Positions 7,939 to 61,371 of a stretch of DNA of 64,000 nucleotides are shown one piece after another. The DNA is from Microbacterium sediminis (GTDB taxonomy: Bacteria > Actinomycetota > Actinomycetes > Actinomycetales > Microbacteriaceae), in NCBI RefSeq assembly GCF_004564075.1, contig NZ_CP038256.1, positions 2,728,001-2,792,000 on the forward strand. Direction: 5' to 3'. The translations under genes were made by a program, and so were the position numbers. Position 1 is the stretch's first letter. Each line of letters opens with the position of its first letter. The notes under the pieces are model-generated. The model did no database searches. It had not been told where the DNA came from and worked only from the letters and a program-made list of their open reading frames with translations.

Positions 7939-8781
7939 ATGCGCCTGGCCACCTGGAATGTGAACTCGATCCGCACGCGCGTTGACCGCATCGTGTCGTT
8001 CGCGGAGCGCGAGCACGTCGACGTCCTCGCGATGCAGGAGATCAAGTGCAAGCCCGAGCAGTTCCCCTACGAGCCGTTCGAGGCGGCGGGCTATCACGTC
8101 GAGGTCAACGGCCACAATCAGTGGAACGGCGTCGCGATCGCCAGCCGCGAGCCGATCGAGGACGTCGAGTATGCCTTCACCGGCATGCCGGGGTTCCAGA
8201 AGGGCTACGACGGCGACGACGCCCCGCAGGAGGCGCGCGCCCTCGGTGCGACGGTGAACGGCGTGCGGGTGTGGAGCCTGTACGTGCCGAACGGGCGAAC
8301 GCTCGACGACCCGCACTACGCCTACAAGCTGCGCTGGCTCGAGGCGCTGCGGCAGTACACCGCCGACACCCTCGCCGCGCAGCCCGACCTGCCGCTGGCG
8401 CTCGTGGGCGACTTCAACATCATCCCCACCGACGAGGACAACGGCGATCCCGCGATCGTCGTCGGCCGCTCCACGCACGTCTCGCCGGCCGAGCGCGCGG
8501 CGTTCCAGGCGCTCCAGGACGCGGGCCTGGCCGACACCGTGCGCCCGTTCGTCCCCACCGGCTACACCTACTGGGACTACCAGCGCCTGAAGTTCCCGCG
8601 CAACGAGGGCATCCGCATCGACTTCATCCTCGGCTCGCGCGCCTTCGCCGGCGCCGTGACCGGCGCGGCCATCCACCGCGACGAGCGCAAGGGCACGCAG
8701 CCCAGCGACCACGTGCCGGTGGTCGTCGACCTCGACCTGGCCGGCCCCGAGGACGACGACGTCCCGATGATCTTCGGCTGA
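7939..8781 (+). CDS. xth: exodeoxyribonuclease III
   Basis: A 278-aa AP endonuclease/3'-5' exonuclease of the ExoIII (EEP) family, acting in base excision repair. All catalytic blocks are visible: LATWNVNSIR (metal Asn), MQEIKCK (metal Glu), SLYVPNG (Tyr), VGDFNI (Asp/Asn pair), RIDFILGS, and SDHVPVVVDL (terminal Asp-His). The start is ATG 7939, with TAGGCT (7927-7932) 6 nt upstream, so it is probably leaderless. Its 3' end is followed directly by the tandem repeats at 8.8-9.36 kb. Confidence 0.95.
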   Translation: MRLATWNVNSIRTRVDRIVSFAEREHVDVLAMQEIKCKPEQFPYEPFEAAGYHVEVNGHNQWNGVAIASREPIEDVEYAFTGMPGFQKGYDGDDAPQEARALGATVNGVRVWSLYVPNGRTLDDPHYAYKLRWLEALRQYTADTLAAQPDLPLALVGDFNIIPTDEDNGDPAIVVGRSTHVSPAERAAFQALQDAGLADTVRPFVPTGYTYWDYQRLKFPRNEGIRIDFILGSRAFAGAVTGAAIHRDERKGTQPSDHVPVVVDLDLAGPEDDDVPMIFG

Positions 8782-8819
8782 CCCGCGCTCCGGCGCCCGC
8801 TCTCGACTGCGCTGCGCTC

Positions 8820-9360
8820 CGCTCGAGCCGTCTCCGCTCGCTTCGCTCGGTCGACGAGCCCGTCGGGGTCACGGCGCGCGGTGGGCCGCAACCCCTCACG
8901 GCTCGTCGACCGGAGCGCGAAGCGCGGAGCGGAGACGGGTCGAGCGCAGCCGCGAAGCGGCGGAGTCGAGACCAAGGCCCGAGCCCGTCGGGGTCACGCC
9001 CGCGATGCGCCGCAACCCCTCACGGCTCGTCGACCGGAGGCGCGCAGCGCCGGAGCGGAGACGGGTCGAGCGAGCGAGCGAAGCGAGTCGAGACCAAGGC
9101 CCGAGCCGTACGTCGTCACGGCGCGCGATGGGCCGCAACCCCTCACCGCTCGTCGACCGGAGGCGCGCAGCGCCGGAGCGGAGACGGGCCGAGCGCAGCC
9201 GCGAAGCGGCGGAGTCGAGACCAAGGCCCGAGCCGTCGGGGTCACGCCCGTGAGGGGCCGCAACCCCTCACCGCTCGTCGACCGGAGGCGCGCAGCGCCG
9301 GAGCGGAGACGGGCCGAGCGCAGCCGTGAAGCGGCGGAGTCGAGGCCTCGGCCCCAACCC
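8820..9360. repeat. tandem array of ~124-bp repeats
   Basis: Four near-identical units begin with GCCGCAACCCCTCAC at about 8885, 9009, 9132 and 9257 (spacings 124, 123 and 125). Each unit carries a TCGACCGG block, a purine-rich block (GGAGCGGAGACGG), an AGTCGAGACCAAGGCCCGAGCC block and a TCGGGGTCACG tail. A half unit in the opposite orientation (CGTCTCCGCTCGCTTCGCTCGGTCGACGAGCC) starts at about 8828, so the array begins with an inverted pair. Long open frames on both strands are only the effect of the unit length and GC content. The reverse complement of the core is the same family as the repeats at 59650-60549. Confidence 0.85.
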
Positions 9361-9362
9361 GC

Positions 9363-10262
9363 CTATCGCGCGATCTCGAAGTTGTAGATGCCCGAGTCGA
9401 AGGCGTTGTAGCCGGGGTAGTCGACGAGGTCGTACAGGTCGGCGCGGTGCTGCATCTCGCCCAGGAGCCCGGTGAGGTGCCCGTCGGCGAGGAGCGTGTC
9501 GAGGGCGCGCTCGGCCGATCCCATCGCCATGCGCAGCAGCGACACCGGCCAGATCACGAGGCGGGCGCCGGCCTCGCGCAGCTGATCGACCGTGAACAGC
9601 TCGCTCTTGCCGAACTCGGTCATGTTGGCCAGCACGGGCACGTCCAGCGCCGCGCTGACCGCCTCGAACTCCGCGAGGTCCCTCATCGCCTCGGCGAAGA
9701 TCATGTCGGCCCCGGCCTCGACCAGCTTGCGCGCCCGGTCGATGGTCGCCTCGAGCCCGGCGATCGCGCGGATGTCGGTGCGGGCGATGATCACGAAGTT
9801 CTCGTCGCGGCGCGCGTCGGCGGCGGCGCGGATCCGCTGCAGGGCGGTGTGCTCGTCGACGACCTCCTTGCCGTCGAGGTGGCCGCAGCGCTTGGGGTTC
9901 ACCTGGTCCTCGATGTGGCAGCCCGCCACCCCGGCGTCCTCGAGCGTCTGGATGCTGCGGGCGACGTTCATGGTCTCGCCGAAGCCGGTGTCGGCGTCGA
10001 CGATCACCGGCAGGTCGGTCATCCTGGCGATCTGCCCCGCGCGCGTCGCGACCTCGGTGAGGGTCGTCAGCCCGATGTCGGGCAGGCCGAGGTCGGCGGC
10101 GATCACGGCGCCCGAGACGTAGACGCCGTCGAAGCCCTTGCGCTCGATGAGCCGCGCCGAGAGTGGGTTGAAGGCGCCGGGGAAGCGGAGGATCTCACCC
10201 GAGGCGATCCGCTCGCGGAAGGCGCGGCGCTTCTCGTGCGCGGGAACGGAGGAGTAGAGCAT
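9363..10262 (-). CDS. prpB: methylisocitrate lyase
   Basis: A 299-aa member of the isocitrate lyase/PEP mutase superfamily. It cleaves 2-methylisocitrate to pyruvate and succinate in propionate breakdown. The signature active-site block KRCGHLDGKEV is present, with metal and substrate regions VDADTGFGE and EDQVNPKRCG upstream and IARTDIRA downstream. ATG 10262 shares one base with the prpD stop codon (TGATG), so the pair is translationally coupled. No prpC follows; the gene ends at the tandem-repeat array. Confidence 0.93.
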   Translation of the reverse strand: MLYSSVPAHEKRRAFRERIASGEILRFPGAFNPLSARLIERKGFDGVYVSGAVIAADLGLPDIGLTTLTEVATRAGQIARMTDLPVIVDADTGFGETMNVARSIQTLEDAGVAGCHIEDQVNPKRCGHLDGKEVVDEHTALQRIRAAADARRDENFVIIARTDIRAIAGLEATIDRARKLVEAGADMIFAEAMRDLAEFEAVSAALDVPVLANMTEFGKSELFTVDQLREAGARLVIWPVSLLRMAMGSAERALDTLLADGHLTGLLGEMQHRADLYDLVDYPGYNAFDSGIYNFEIAR

Positions 10263-55787: not shown

Positions 55788-56759
55788 TTACTCCCCGTAC
55801 GACTCCTCGCCGATCTCGGAGAGGATGCGGTTGAGGTCCTGGATCGACGCGAAATCGATCGTGACCTGGCCTTTTCGCGCGCCCAGATTGATCTTCACAC
55901 GGGTGTTCAGGCGATCGCCCAGTCGCGTCGCCACCTCATCGAGATAGGCCCGGCGCGCGCCGGCCTTGGGCTTGACCTTGGCGGGGGAGGACTCGCCCAC
56001 GGCGGCGATCGTCTTGGCGGCGGCCTCGGCGGCACGCACCGAGAGGTCCTCGTTGACGATCTTGTCGGCCAGGCGCTGCATCGCGTCGACATCGTCGAGC
56101 GAGAGGATCGCACGGGCGTGGCCGGCGCTCAGCACCCCGGCGGCGACGCGCTGCTGGACGGGGACGGGAAGGCGGAGCAGGCGGATCGTGTTGCTGATCT
56201 GCGGGCGCGATCGTCCGATCCGCTTGGCGAGCTCGTCCTGCGTGATGCCGAAGTCATCGAGCAGCTGCTGGTAGGCCGAGGCCTCCTCGAGCGGGTTCAG
56301 CTGCGAGCGGTGCAGGTTCTCGAGGAGGGCGTCGCGCAGCAGATCCTCGTCCTGGGTGTCGCGGACGATCGCGGGGATCTCCGTGAGCCCGGCCTCGCGC
56401 GAGGCGCGCGTGCGGCGCTCGCCCATGATCAGCTCGAAGGTGCCGTCGCCCTTGTCGCGGACGACGACGGGCTGCAGCACGCCGAACTCGCGCACGCTGT
56501 GCACGAGCTCCGCGAGGTCGTCGGGATCGAAGTTCGTGCGGGGCTGACGCGGGTTGGGGACGATCGCGTGCGGGTCGATGTGCACGAGGCGCGCGCCCGG
56601 CACCGCGACGAGCTCCTCCGCGGCCGCGACGGGCGCGGTCTCCTCTGCCTTCTTCTTCGACGCGCCTGGGAAGAACACGTCGACGGGACGGGTGTCCGTC
56701 GACTCCGAAGTGGGGATGAGCGCGCCGATACCGCGCCCCAGACCCGTTCGCTTTGCCAT
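55788..56759 (-). CDS. parB: chromosome partitioning protein ParB
   Basis: A 323-aa parS-binding CTPase. The N-terminal region has LVHIDPHAIVPNPRQPRTNFD and the CTP box IMGERRTRASREAGL. The helix-turn-helix ITQDELAKRIGRSRPQISNTIRLLRLP recognises parS. The C-terminal dimer domain ends KGQVTIDFASIQDLNRILSEI. ATG 56759 shares a base with the parA stop (TGATG). It loads on the parS cluster right next to the operon and organises the origin region. Confidence 0.97.
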   Translation of the reverse strand: MAKRTGLGRGIGALIPTSESTDTRPVDVFFPGASKKKAEETAPVAAAEELVAVPGARLVHIDPHAIVPNPRQPRTNFDPDDLAELVHSVREFGVLQPVVVRDKGDGTFELIMGERRTRASREAGLTEIPAIVRDTQDEDLLRDALLENLHRSQLNPLEEASAYQQLLDDFGITQDELAKRIGRSRPQISNTIRLLRLPVPVQQRVAAGVLSAGHARAILSLDDVDAMQRLADKIVNEDLSVRAAEAAAKTIAAVGESSPAKVKPKAGARRAYLDEVATRLGDRLNTRVKINLGARKGQVTIDFASIQDLNRILSEIGEESYGE

Positions 56760-57694
56760 CAGGCCTTCTCCTCTTCGCTGTTCTTCGCTCCGCGCGACAC
56801 GATCTCCACCGCGGCCTCACGGTAGGCCACGGCCCCGGCGGAACCGCCATCGTATGTGATCACGGTCTGCCCGAAGCTCGGCGCCTCCGACACGCGGACC
56901 GAGCGCGGGATGACCGTCTTGAGCACCTCGTTTGGGAAGTGCGACCGCACCTCGTCACCGACCTGCTGCGACAGTCGCGTGCGCTGATCGAACATCGTCA
57001 GGAGGATCGTCGACACGTGGATCCGCGGATTCAGGTGCTTCTGGATCATCTTGATGTTGCCGAGCAGCTGGCTCAGGCCCTCGAGGGCGTAGTACTCCGC
57101 CTGGATGGGCAGGAACACCTCGTCGGCGGCGGTGAACGCATTGATCGTGAGGAGCCCGAGCGAGGGCGGGCAGTCGATCAGGATGAAGTCGAACGCGTGC
57201 TCCTGCTCCGCGAGGAACGTGTCCAGCGCGGTCTTCAGGCGGTGCTCGCGGGCAACCTGCGAGACGAGCTCGATCTCGGCGCCCGCCAGGTGGATCGTGC
57301 TCGGGGCGCAGAACAGGTTCTCGCTCTCCGGGCTCGGCTGGATCACGTCGGCGATCGGGAAGTCGTCGATCAGCACGTCGTAGATGCTCGGAACGTCGGC
57401 CGAGTGCGGCACGCCGAGGGCGGTGGAGGCGTTCCCCTGCGGGTCGAGATCGATGACCAGCACGCGACCGCCGAGCTCCGCGATCGCGGCGGCGATGTTC
57501 ACCGTGGTCGTGGTCTTCCCCACGCCACCCTTCTGGTTCGACACCGTCATCACGCGGGTCTGTCCCGTGAACGTGACCTTCGCCTCGGCCAGACGGCGCT
57601 TGCGGGCGCTCAGATCCGCGAGTTCGCGGGCGAGAGGGGTGTCATCGGGAAGCGAGAAGGTGCTCTCGTTCTCGGACTGTTTCACGTGAAACAC
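56759..57694 (-). CDS. parA: chromosome partitioning ATPase ParA
   Basis: A 311-aa deviant Walker ATPase. About 50 residues precede VMTVSNQKGGVGKTTTTVNIAA (signature Lys in KGGVGKT). Switch regions VLVIDLDPQGNASTALG and FILIDCPPSLGLLTINA follow. It moves ParB-parS complexes over the nucleoid. GTG 57694 gives an N-terminus MFHVKQ that is encoded by a perfect parS site, so ParB bound there would sit on the start codon. An internal start near KVTFTGQTRVM is possible. Confidence 0.95.
   Translation of the reverse strand: MFHVKQSENESTFSLPDDTPLARELADLSARKRRLAEAKVTFTGQTRVMTVSNQKGGVGKTTTTVNIAAAIAELGGRVLVIDLDPQGNASTALGVPHSADVPSIYDVLIDDFPIADVIQPSPESENLFCAPSTIHLAGAEIELVSQVAREHRLKTALDTFLAEQEHAFDFILIDCPPSLGLLTINAFTAADEVFLPIQAEYYALEGLSQLLGNIKMIQKHLNPRIHVSTILLTMFDQRTRLSQQVGDEVRSHFPNEVLKTVIPRSVRVSEAPSFGQTVITYDGGSAGAVAYREAAVEIVSRGAKNSEEEKA
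57678..57693. other. parS site 1 (perfect, over the parA start)
   Basis: TGTTTCACGTGAAACA, the exact consensus. It covers the first codons of parA. Confidence 0.95.
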
Positions 57695-57779
57695 ACTCTT
57701 TCGCTTCGCGGGCGTCGGGCTGTGTCCACTCTAACCCGGCACGCCGACAACACTCCGGGGCACCGCGCTTCCCTGTGGA

Positions 57780-57795
57780 TGTTTCACGTGAAACA
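57780..57795. other. parS site 2 (perfect)
   Basis: TGTTTCACGTGAAACA, exact consensus, 102 bp from site 1. Confidence 0.95.
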
Positions 57796-58189
57796 TCGGG
57801 TAGGTCTGCGCGTTGCCCGGTCGAGCGGAGCCGTGGCCGCTGACCGACGTGACGCCGCCGCTGCTTCCCGAGGCCGGACGCGCACGCGTGCGGCCGGAGC
57901 GACGCGGCGGTGCCTGTCGTGTGGTGCCGCACCCGTGTGCGAGGTCCGACTCCGCTCCGCTTCTGCGGGGCCCGTTCCACGCGCCTCTGCCCGCGATGAC
58001 CCGCGCTGAGCGAGTGAGCGCCATGCGACGACTCTCCTGGACGATGGGCCCCAACTCAGCGCGCGACGCCGAGACGAGCGTCCGCCAACCGGCCACGTGC
58101 ATCGCGAAGGCCAGAGGCGGGGGATCCGACGCAGGCGCGGAGTCGCAAGGGCAGGTCGCCCCATGCTTCCACCGGTCGCTCAGTCCCGA

Positions 58190-58205
58190 TGTTTCACGTG
58201 AAACG
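58190..58205. other. parS site 3 (one mismatch)
   Basis: TGTTTCACGTGAAACG; only the last base differs from consensus. It is 410 bp from site 2. Confidence 0.92.
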
Positions 58206-59007
58206 TTGAGGTCCCTCTGCGCCCGCTGCACTTGGCGGCGCCAGTGTGATCCATTGCTCGTCACCCCGGACCCCCAGGCGTCGATTCGTGGCAGGGATCC
58301 CCTCGTTCTTCGTCGACCCGCCCGTACGAAACACCTCCACATCGCGCGCGCGAGAAGCCCGAGCACGGAGGCGGCCTTCACCACAGCGCCGAGCCGGAGC
58401 CCCCGGGACTCCGGCGCCACCACCAGTGAAGCCCTTCTCGGCGCGGTGCCCCTTGAGAACGACGAAGGTCATCGCGAGCACGCGCCCTCCCGTATCGAAC
58501 ACACCGAACCCTCGCCGCTCAGGTCCGAAGAGGATGGTTGATGCGGTCAGCCGCTCCTGTCGTGCCGCTCCGCCACCCGAGTCGCGCGCCACGACCGCCC
58601 TCCGGTCCGACTCCTCGATCTGTCGCACGTCCCGTCGTGAAAGGGCGCGTCCACCCAGCTCCGAAAGCGCATCGACGCCCGCCGTTGTGCGGTCAGCTGC
58701 GCGCCCGTGGAGTGCGCCACCACGACCCTGCCGTCCCTCTCGAGGGACGCTCGACGAGGATCATCGCTCGGCCGCACATCCTGTCCGCACCCGATCCCAC
58801 CAGTCTGGCGGCGTGGCGGCGTCCGAGCGGTCGGGGATTCGCCGCGCGCCTGGGGGAGTGGCACATCCGCTCATCGATTGGAGGGTCGGCTGCAGCGGGT
58901 ACCTTCATCTCCGCGGCTGCACCGCTCCGTTCAGGGATCGATGCGGTTGGCACCTCAGAGGTGGCCCCATCCGGTCGGAGCCGGCGCCCGCGATTGCGTC
59001 GATCCGA

Positions 59008-59023
59008 CGTTTCACGTGAAACA
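59008..59023. other. parS site 4 (one mismatch)
   Basis: CGTTTCACGTGAAACA; only the first base differs. It is exactly 818 bp from site 3. Confidence 0.92.
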
Positions 59024-59825
59024 TCCCGCCTCCTCTTCAGAAGTGGCAGGACAGCGGTTCCCGATTGTCCCCCCAGGCACCGTGGATGACGCGACCACCG
59101 CAACGACACGTGAAGGTGTCCCGGCACGGGCAGGGGGCGCGGCGTCCGCTTACGACTCCGTCATGATCGCTCGGGTCACGCAAGAGCCCGACGGCGCAGA
59201 TCGCCGACTCCGACTGCCCACAATCCACAGTGTGCCCGGCACGGGCGACCCCGCCGGTGACGCGATTGCCGAACCGAGGCTCGCATCGCCGCAGCCGATG
59301 CAATCACCCCAAGCCCTCGTGCTGCGTTCCCGGCGCGAACCGCACGCTCACGCCGTCGACGCATGCGGGAGCATCCGACGCCGGACACGTCTACCGCAAC
59401 CGGCTCAGCGGACACCCTCTCCGGACACCCGGTTCGAGCTGCCGCGCTGACAGGTCAGGTGAGACGTCACTCGGCGGCACGATCCCGCTGCATGGGCGAA
59501 GCCGCGACCCGCTCGACGAGCGATGGCGGACGCGACTCCAGCAGCAGGTGTGTGGTCGCCCCCGAAACGGCACAAGGGGCGTGCCGCCACCGCTTCGGTT
59601 ACCGGATCGCGGCGGGGTCCATCTTCCTGTCCATCCGTAAGGCTCCGCCCGACCCGTCTCCGTTCACTTCGCTCAGTCGACGAGCGGAACTCCGAGCTCC
59701 CGCGTCCCACACGGCGGCGCCCTGTTTCACGTTCGCTTCGCTCAGTCGACGAGCGGAACCGGGAGCGCCCGCCGCGCGGCTTGGCATGAGCCGGGGGACT
59801 ACCTGTCGGCCGACACCGTGGGGGA

Positions 59826-59841
59826 TGTTTCACGTGAAACA
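59826..59841. other. parS site 5 (perfect, heads tandem module 1)
   Basis: TGTTTCACGTGAAACA, exact consensus; again exactly 818 bp from the previous site. Confidence 0.95.
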
Positions 59842-60109
59842 TCGCGGGCGAAGAAGGGCGCCGGCGGAACCGGCGAGCGGTGTAGGCCGCGTGGCCGGAC
59901 CGGAGAGCATGCAAATACCCGATGGTCATTGAAAGAGGAGCCGACCGATCGGTCACAGCCGGCGACCGAAAGTCTCGACTACGCCCTTCGGGCTCCGCTC
60001 GACCCGTCTCCGTTCGCTTCGCTCAGTCGACGAGCGGAGCCGCGGACCCCCGTCTCATGGATTGGGCCATGCAGCCGTGGGACTGCCTCTCGGCCGAGCC
60101 AGCGGGGGA

Positions 60110-60125
60110 TGTTTCACGTGAAACG
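60110..60125. other. parS site 6 (one mismatch, heads tandem module 2)
   Basis: TGTTTCACGTGAAACG, 284 bp from site 5. Confidence 0.92.
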
Positions 60126-60386
60126 TCGCCAGGGAGAGGGCGTCGGCGGCGAAACGGCGAGCGGAGTAGGTGCGTGGTCCGGACGGGAGAGCGTTCAACT
60201 ACCGGATCGTCACTGAAAAAGGAGCGACCGATCTGTCACAGCCGGCGACCGAAGGTCTCGACTCCGCCCTTCGGGCTCCGCTCGACCCCTCTCCGTTCGC
60301 TTCGCTCAGTCGACAAGCGGAACCGGGAGCGCCCGTCTCATTGCTTCGGCGTCCTCTCTTGCCTGTTGGCTGACGCGCCGGTGGTC

Positions 60387-60402
60387 TGTTCCACGTGAAC
60401 GC
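60387..60402. other. decayed parS at the head of tandem module 3
   Basis: TGTTCCACGTGAACGC keeps the CCACGTGA core but has arm changes. It is 277 bp from site 6, in the place where the module pattern predicts a parS. Confidence 0.6.
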
Positions 60403-60645
60403 CAAGCGGACCACAACGACTCCCAAGAGCCCGTCCGAACCGACGCGGGGGAGGGGATCACCTGCCGCTCCTGGCCGGGAAAGGTCTCGGCTCCGCCCTT
60501 CGGGCTGCGCTCGACCCGTCTCCGTTCGCTTCGCTCAGTCGACGAGCGGGAGCCGGGTCTGCCGTGCAGCCGCCTCGGCTCGGTCGGCCCGAGAGACTCC
60601 CACCTGCCGCGCAGCGGTCATGAGCCAAGGGGAACCGCGATGCGA

Positions 60646-60661
60646 CGTTTCACGTGAAACG
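60646..60661. other. parS site 7 (CGTTTC variant) at the rsmG end
   Basis: CGTTTCACGTGAAACG is a perfect palindrome with both outer bases changed from consensus. It lies 57 bp from the rsmG stop codon. Confidence 0.85.
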
Positions 60662-60717: not shown

Positions 60718-61371
60718 TCAGGCCGCGCGGACGAGAGCGCGGACGACGCGCGTCTCCTCGGCCAGGACGCCCTCGCCAAGGACCTCCACACGCACGTCGG
60801 AGAGCTTGAACTTCCGCACCTGCTTGGCCGCCGCCTCGATCTCGGCCTCGGCATTGCGGCCCTTGAGCAGGATCAGCTCACCGCCGTCGCGCACCAGGGG
60901 AGCGGTCCAGGGAATGAGGGTGCGCAGCGCCGAGACGGCGCGCGCCGTCACCGCGTCGAGCAGCCCCTCCACGCCGGCCTCCTCCGCTCGGGCGCGATGC
61001 ACCGTCACGTTCGACAGGCCGAGCGACGACACCTGCTCCTCGAGCCACGCCACGCGGCGCTCCATCGGCTCGATGAGCTCCCATGTCACATCCGGTCGCG
61101 CGATCGCCAGCACGATGCCCGGCAGACCGGCACCGGAGCCGACGTCGCCGACGCGGCCGCCGGCGGGGAAGAGGGGAGCGGACACCGCGCAGTTCAGGAT
61201 GTGTCGCGTCCACAGCCGCGGCAGCTCCTGCGGCCCGATCAGCCCGCGCTCCTCGCCGTGCGCCACCAGGGCCGCCGCGTACGAGCGAGCGAAGTCGATG
61301 CGATCCCCGAACAGCGTCGCCGCGATCGCCGGTTCTGGCTCGACGGGGGAGACCTCGGGCGCTTCGCTCAT
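60718..61371 (-). CDS. rsmG: 16S rRNA (guanine-N7) methyltransferase
   Basis: A 217-aa SAM-dependent enzyme that methylates G527 (E. coli numbering) of 16S rRNA. SAM motif I is VGDVGSGAGLPGIVLAI, followed by ELIEPMERRVAWLEE. The catalytic region has TARAVSALRTL and LLKGRNAEAEI. Its length is normal. AAAGGATGG precedes ATG 61371. It sits in the standard origin-flank order after jag, 81 bp away. Confidence 0.95.
   Translation of the reverse strand: MSEAPEVSPVEPEPAIAATLFGDRIDFARSYAAALVAHGEERGLIGPQELPRLWTRHILNCAVSAPLFPAGGRVGDVGSGAGLPGIVLAIARPDVTWELIEPMERRVAWLEEQVSSLGLSNVTVHRARAEEAGVEGLLDAVTARAVSALRTLIPWTAPLVRDGGELILLKGRNAEAEIEAAAKQVRKFKLSDVRVEVLGEGVLAEETRVVRALVRAA

Follow-up and report, generated by a model that had tools for sequence, protein, structure and literature searches.

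What kind of DNA lies between rsmG and parA in Microbacterium sediminis, and how did it come to hold so many copies of parS, the site at which ParB loads? How and why bacterial centromere regions expand is listed among the open questions in PMC5815017. The DNA analyzed here (the window) is 64,000 nt of the M. sediminis chromosome (C1:2728001-2792000; genome of 2.92 Mb), in which the genes run in the order rnpA-yidD-yidC-jag-rsmG-[gap]-parA-parB, every one on the minus strand, with a gap of 3,023 bp between rsmG and parA. We propose that this interval is probably a chromosomal centromere region that is expandable in Microbacterium, and that in some lineages it would have grown by tandem duplication of a composite unit made of parS and a dispersed repeat, here called R. 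Growth in parS number by duplication of such units, once here and also in other species, is well supported by sequence comparison.

Tandem modules in the rsmG-parA interval

Seven exact GTTTCACGTGAAAC parS cores run from the parA start to rsmG, six of them inside the gap proper and the first over the parA start. They belong to parS 1 (57678-57693, over the parA translation start; core at 57679), parS 2 (57780-57795; core at 57781), parS 3 (58190-58205; core at 58191), parS 4 (59008-59023; core at 59009), parS 5 in module 1 (59826-59841; core at 59827), parS 6 in module 2 (60110-60125; core at 60111), and parS 7 (60646-60661; core at 60647). An initial annotation of this DNA had counted eight parS-like palindromes, which agrees with the seven exact cores and an eighth site, TGTTCCACGTGAACG at 60387-60401, that it correctly described as the decayed parS of a third module. 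It did not list a ninth, truncated site, the left part of a parS (TGTTTCACGT, 59723-59732) fused to a truncated copy of R. No other parS with zero or one mismatch was found elsewhere in the 2.92-Mb genome, and the four parS-like sites with two mismatches in the genome all lie outside the gap. Several exact palindromic cores beside parAB and origin-side genes, together with a ParA ATPase and a ParB with ParB_N and HTH domains (Pfam), identify the locus as a ParABS cluster.

The same annotation divided the last part of the interval into three modules, each said to begin with parS, to continue with a shared block, and to contain the dispersed repeat. Their lengths of 284, 277, and 259 bp are correct and equal the parS-to-parS steps by position. 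Modules 1 and 2 do represent a tandem duplication: 188 of 217 positions are identical when parS is removed, and 92 of 110 when parS and R are both removed, with none of 500 shuffles reaching the score in either case. The tails before parS 5 and parS 6 also match (40/51; 0/500 shuffles as good), so the duplicated unit starts ~37 bp before parS and not at parS, and it spans about 59789-60072 and 60073-60350 on the plus strand. Its first copy comprises the tail, parS 5, the block (59842-59961), and R copy 3 (59962-60050), and the second has its block at 60126-60244 and R copy 4 at 60245-60325. Other tail comparisons were weak (before parS 5 versus after module 2, 9/500 shuffles as good; tail A versus tail B, 4/500).

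Module 3 has in common with modules 1 and 2 only R (72/77 and 71/77 identical) and the decayed parS. Its head gave no alignment with the shared blocks above background (113 and 482 of 500 shuffles as good), and the window contains GTCACAGCCGGCGACCGAA at just two positions, 59952 and 60235. Outside parS and R, head-to-tail copies far above background are therefore confined to modules 1 and 2; the block ascribed to all three modules is absent from the third, and R, as claimed, is in every one. Five R copies, all on the plus strand, are interleaved with parS sites that are, in order, truncated, intact, intact, decayed, and intact. Those outside modules 1 and 2 are copy 1 (59630-59702; matched at 59641-59688 in the genome search), the truncated copy 2 (59730-59771; matched at 59730-59761), and copy 5 after the decayed parS (60481-60555). 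The truncated parS at 59723 runs straight into R, and the CGT common to both sides of the joint points to a deletion between parS and R, so that the fusion looks like the product of a deletion within a further module.

A genome search with R copy 3 as the query gave 72 matches at an E value of ≤0.001, 5 of them in the gap; many of those outside it are neighboring copies in opposite orientation. Two copies so oriented lie at window positions 8801-8972, inside a noncoding-like run (8701-9450) that is the window's next longest. The idea that R is a repetitive extragenic palindromic (REP) element, moved by a REP-associated tyrosine transposase (RAYT), was rejected. The RAYT domain Y1_Tnp (PF01797) had 0 matches in the M. 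sediminis genome in a genome-wide search that did not cover other transposase families, and its control matched 5 of 14 genomes. The one window copy of R that was folded gave no unusual hairpin (z = -0.61; 54/200 shuffles as good). Given both results, we do not call R a REP element.

The interval had been described as 3 kb without genes, and this holds. None of its 28 windows had a coding-like spread of G+C content among codon positions, all 10 open reading frames (ORFs) tried lacked a Pfam match, and there was no Rfam match; genes or pseudogenes are thus unsupported by the first two results, and a noncoding RNA is not indicated by the third. The codon-position measure separates rsmG and parA from gaps (5.3% of 2,831 gap windows in the genus reach the coding 5th percentile), and by it the M. 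sediminis gap contains the two longest noncoding-like runs in the 64 kb.

Interval length and parS arrays among relatives

The comparison covered 149 genomes of the genus, and 141 of them, M. sediminis included, had rsmG; 135 loci were fetched, and 130 gaps were counted, among them that of the window. Five genomes with rsmG were left out because of little sequence downstream of the gene (G142, G003, and G066) or a fragmented assembly (G023 and G044). Six of the 135 loci had no ParA match on the fetched piece (L096, L098, L102, L136, L218, and L220), and the counts exclude L013 (same gap as L182), L015 (another genus), and L014 (no RsmG-ParA pair). For other genera of the family, 60 loci were fetched, one per genus, of 106 genomes with rsmG.

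Gap length in the 130 congeneric loci ranged from 40 to 8,610 bp with a median of 1,881.5 bp, compared to a median of 106 bp in the 60 other genera (Mann-Whitney P = 1.3e-12), and gaps of at least 600 bp were present in 106/130 and 19/60 loci, respectively. Length follows a tree built from RsmG, ParA, and ParB (mean squared contrast of 0.67 versus at least 2.67 in 300 label shuffles), being alike within clades and variable between them. Genomes contain 0 to 14 exact parS (149 genomes; most of those with 0 are incomplete assemblies). In the genomes with the 12 longest gaps, 123 of the 125 exact sites lie in the gap or at its edge. parS number and gap length were correlated over the 130 loci (Spearman 0.77), also after correction for relatedness on the same tree (r = 0.80; 129 independent contrasts, 94 concordant and 18 discordant). 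Because more sites can fit into a longer gap, the correlation alone proves little, showing no more than that growth of the gap goes with gain or retention of sites. At L096, coding-like stretches after rsmG are followed by ~6 kb of little coding signal with 7 exact parS, the last of them at position 10156 of 10330; with sites running nearly to the end of the piece, this interval is longer than the piece fetched.

Long gaps are often devoid of coding signal in relatives as well. Coding-like windows were absent from 60 of the 106 gaps that reach 600 bp and from 29 of the 64 that reach 2 kb, and 10 long ORFs from relatives' gaps had no Pfam match. The longest noncoding-like run inside the 106 gaps had a median of 1,475 bp (maximum, 7,000 bp), versus 250 bp (maximum, 2,500 bp) per locus outside the gap (1.02 Mb of flanks at the other loci). 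Coding-like stretches, often adjoining rsmG, are present in some gaps (L179, L192, and L099), and the absence of genes is therefore not universal.

Arrays were sought in the 120 gaps longer than 150 bp, the other 10 of the 130 being 150 bp or shorter. With parS masked, 55/120 gaps contained a direct self-match at an E value of <1e-5, and any match appeared in 9 of 360 shuffled replicates. parS sites stood in register with direct repeats in 28/120 loci (mean of 10.4 and maximum of 17 in 200 relocations of parS), forming 134 in-register pairs (mean of 15.9 and maximum of 26), as judged by a relocation control that ignores the shared ancestry of loci. Units read by eye as parS plus a repeat-like stretch measured 107 bp in L109, where copies are as much as 98% identical, 208 bp in L213, about 216 bp in L118, 150 bp in L129, 135 bp in L111, and 160 bp in L135. 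Units from three of the 27 array-bearing relatives were searched genome-wide, with 86 matches in G078 and 14 in G137, 8 of the latter away from the locus. With M. sediminis included, the repeat of the unit was found outside the locus in all four genomes searched and was abundant in two. In 21 of the 28 array loci, but not in the other 7, half or more of the in-register parS had a repeat 9-mer nearby; since these gaps themselves supplied the 9-mers, the count is partly circular.

Parsimony requires 22 changes for the 28 array loci (random labels: mean of 25.6, minimum of 19), so arrays are scattered over the tree, and a single origin was rejected on this count. The modules of 10 loci are linked by common repeat-like sequence, which makes the number of origins uncertain, and the array of L118 and L119 looks inherited. 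The initial annotation had named two outcomes that would refute its reading, and neither was observed outright. The first was one fixed spacing in related genomes with no module structure, and no fixed spacing is common to the relatives. The second was module alignment outside parS and R no better than background; modules 1 and 2 are far above it, and module 3 is not. Together, these comparisons suggest that centromere size varies greatly between species and may have grown by unit copying in several.

Several observations weigh against growth by unit duplication, in addition to the limits of the length correlation, the relocation control, and the 9-mer count given above. No in-register array is present in 92/120 loci. 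In the 84 array-free loci with enough sites, similarity between parS flanks was scarcely greater inside a locus than across loci (0.315 versus 0.311; P = 0.046), which hardly fits an origin of these sites as short duplications and means that tandem copying explains only a minority of sites; the array-free parS are either duplications too old to see or sites gained otherwise. The sister loci L161 (181 bp, 2 parS) and L162 (501 bp, 4 parS) differ by DNA in L162 without detectable duplication. The unit of G138 is hardly dispersed (12 matches, only 2 of them away from the locus). Module identity was similar within and between sister genomes and not clearly higher within, so homogenization between copies was not evident. 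Finally, R forms clusters elsewhere in the M. sediminis genome without parS, so its clustering needs no centromere. The proposal that copy number grew by tandem duplication thus survives for modules 1 and 2 and for the array loci; it does not extend to the whole M. sediminis gap, where 2/6 sites are in register, or to the array-free loci.

Turnover, inferred constraint, and the proposed growth of the interval

Gap DNA can change quickly around its parS sites. Eleven sister pairs were compared, of 13 with an RsmG/ParA/ParB identity of 0.95 to 0.98, and in 6 of them the aligned part (summed over the listed segments) came to less than roughly one-third of the gap: L222/L223, with nothing aligned, L208/L211, with 63 aligned columns of about 5.4 kb, L138/L156, L115/L122, L130/L172, and L093/L094. 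The gaps of L147/L154 and L197/L201 align nearly end to end. At the alignment setting used for sister pairs, the window gap had no match to the gaps of its nearest relatives, L093 and L094.

The 130 gaps contain 643 exact parS cores, and allowing as many as 1, 2, or 3 mismatches raises the total only to 757, 777, or 797; one base shuffle per gap gave 0, 0, and 6, respectively. Spacing was more regular than random in 68 of the 83 loci with at least 5 sites, including 51 of the 63 array-free loci among these, and spacings below 80 bp were depleted in array-free loci too (0.052 versus 0.143 expected). We infer from the exact cores and regular spacing that selection acts on each site and on the spacing. 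Roughly half of the 114 sites with one mismatch belong to two variants, GTTTCACGTGGAAC (37) and GTTCCACGTGAAAC (21), which may be tolerated or weaker parS.

On this basis, the interval would serve as a loading zone for ParB, and by extension for SMC, placed without evident genes between rsmG and parA. Each parS would be an entry point from which ParB clamps slide along the surrounding DNA, and array length would then set the amount of ParB at the origin, as expected from ParB biology. Some lineages, M. sediminis among them, would have enlarged the zone by tandem duplication of one parS with one R copy, giving the alternating series R-parS-R-parS, most likely through unequal recombination between R copies that flank a parS. 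Purifying selection would preserve the cores and hold them a minimum distance apart, leaving the intervening sequence free to change, as the statistics suggest.

Three other explanations compete with expansion of a centromere region by unit duplication. The rsmG-parA interval might simply tolerate insertions and R-mediated duplications, with parS copies carried along without benefit. Such neutral growth accords with the R clusters that lack parS, with the majority of loci without an in-register array, and with an interval length that follows the tree as a drifting trait would. It leaves unexplained why cores stay exact when several sister pairs at 95 to 98% identity have little alignable gap DNA, why sites are regularly spaced and short spacings are depleted even without arrays, and why noncoding-like runs are so much longer inside gaps than outside, and we consider it unlikely. 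Slightly less unlikely, but still doubtful, is that selection acts on gene-free length, as a transcription-free track for ParB sliding and SMC loading, and that parS number follows. Similar lengths within clades and variable ones between them would fit, as would the many gaps without coding signal, yet conservation is found in the parS cores and not in the intervening DNA, the gaps of L179, L192, and L099 include coding-like stretches, and length alone does not predict regular spacing.

That the interval is the remnant of a decayed gene, prophage, or mobile element with parS there by chance is very improbable. Long open frames do occur in this G+C-rich gap, and the coding-like stretches in some relatives' gaps, often next to rsmG, would suit a remnant. 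Against it stand the missing codon-position signal, the lack of a Pfam match for 10 ORFs here and 10 in relatives, the lack of an Rfam match, and a genome without Y1 transposase, the one transposase family covered genome-wide. Beyond expansion by unit duplication in some lineages, we regard as plausible, if a little short of probable, a wider reading: a satellite-like, evolvable centromere of 40 bp to 8.6 kb, largely gene-free, in which the dosage of ParB sites would be repeatedly adjusted by recombination between dispersed repeats flanking parS, and in which units would amplify, decay, and be replaced independently in many lineages.

Known systems, the parA start, and other features

That parS sites cluster close to the origin is well established (PMC7083940, PMC7022226, and PMC8357415), and the first of these papers gives ten parS within 35 kb for Corynebacterium glutamicum. 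The likeness lies in ParB and in parS of the Bacillus subtilis type clustered near the origin and mostly between genes. The C. glutamicum sites spread over 35 kb, whereas those of Microbacterium lie in one interval without evident genes, some of them in tandem units with a dispersed repeat, and the length of this interval differs up to about 200-fold between congeners. The sopC/parS-F region of the F plasmid is built from twelve tandem repeats of 43 bp and has ten ParB motifs of 16 bp (PMC6238139); it likewise places a ParB-binding motif inside a tandemly repeated unit. It is a plasmid site with a short unit, whereas the Microbacterium arrays are chromosomal, with units of ~100 to 300 bp that vary from species to species, include a dispersed repeat, and are partly decayed. 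R resembles REP sequences, bacterial interspersed mosaic elements (BIMEs), and REPINs in being short, dispersed, and clustered, with neighbors often in opposite orientation; those families go with RAYT transposases, unlike R, whose genome has no Y1_Tnp (PF01797) and which folds no better than shuffles.

Satellite centromeres of eukaryotes place an essential binding function on quickly changing, tandemly expandable DNA. The Microbacterium interval would share the binding function, the fast-changing DNA, and the tandem expansion; it differs in that a conserved short motif specifies the site, and homogenization between copies was not evident. Among the matches listed in a search of partial texts, with subscription literature mostly outside it, none described parS in tandem units on a chromosome, amplification of such sites together with a dispersed repeat, or this Microbacterium interval. 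With 0 to 14 exact parS per genome, an interval of 40 bp to 8.6 kb, and a mechanism visible in some lineages, the genus offers a natural dosage series suited to asking what parS number and gene-free DNA do for ParB loading, SMC loading, and segregation.

The flanking genes, all on the minus strand, are parB (55788-56759; Pfam ParB_N, HTH_ParB, and ParB_C), parA (56759-57694; Pfam AAA_31/CbiA), and rsmG, also called gidB (60718-61371; Pfam GidB). The best named relative of this ParA is from Microbacterium sp. MYb54 (76% identity). The GTG start listed for parA at 57694 is a putative one, and a second in-frame GTG lies in the middle of parS 1. At 100 of the 130 congeneric loci, the central GTG of a parS, or of either of two variants with one mismatch, is in the parA frame, and 94 of these loci have a Shine-Dalgarno-like stretch directly before that GTG. 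ParB bound at parS 1 over the parA start could repress parAB. Upstream of parA in relatives, at a place corresponding to about 57730 in the window, the 9-mers TAGAGTGGA and TTAGAGTGG were found in 53 and 47 of the 130 gaps; a conserved parA promoter may include them, in which case the growing DNA would lie upstream of the promoter.

A search for DnaA boxes with two 9-mers gave 1 match over the 130 gaps, where ~5 are expected at equal base frequencies, and 0 in the window gap. No sigma-70-type promoters were found, and terminator-like matches numbered 4, versus 1.3 in shuffles. Terminator-like hairpins on the minus strand at 59940-59963 and 60225-60244 sit at equivalent places in the two copies of the duplicated block.

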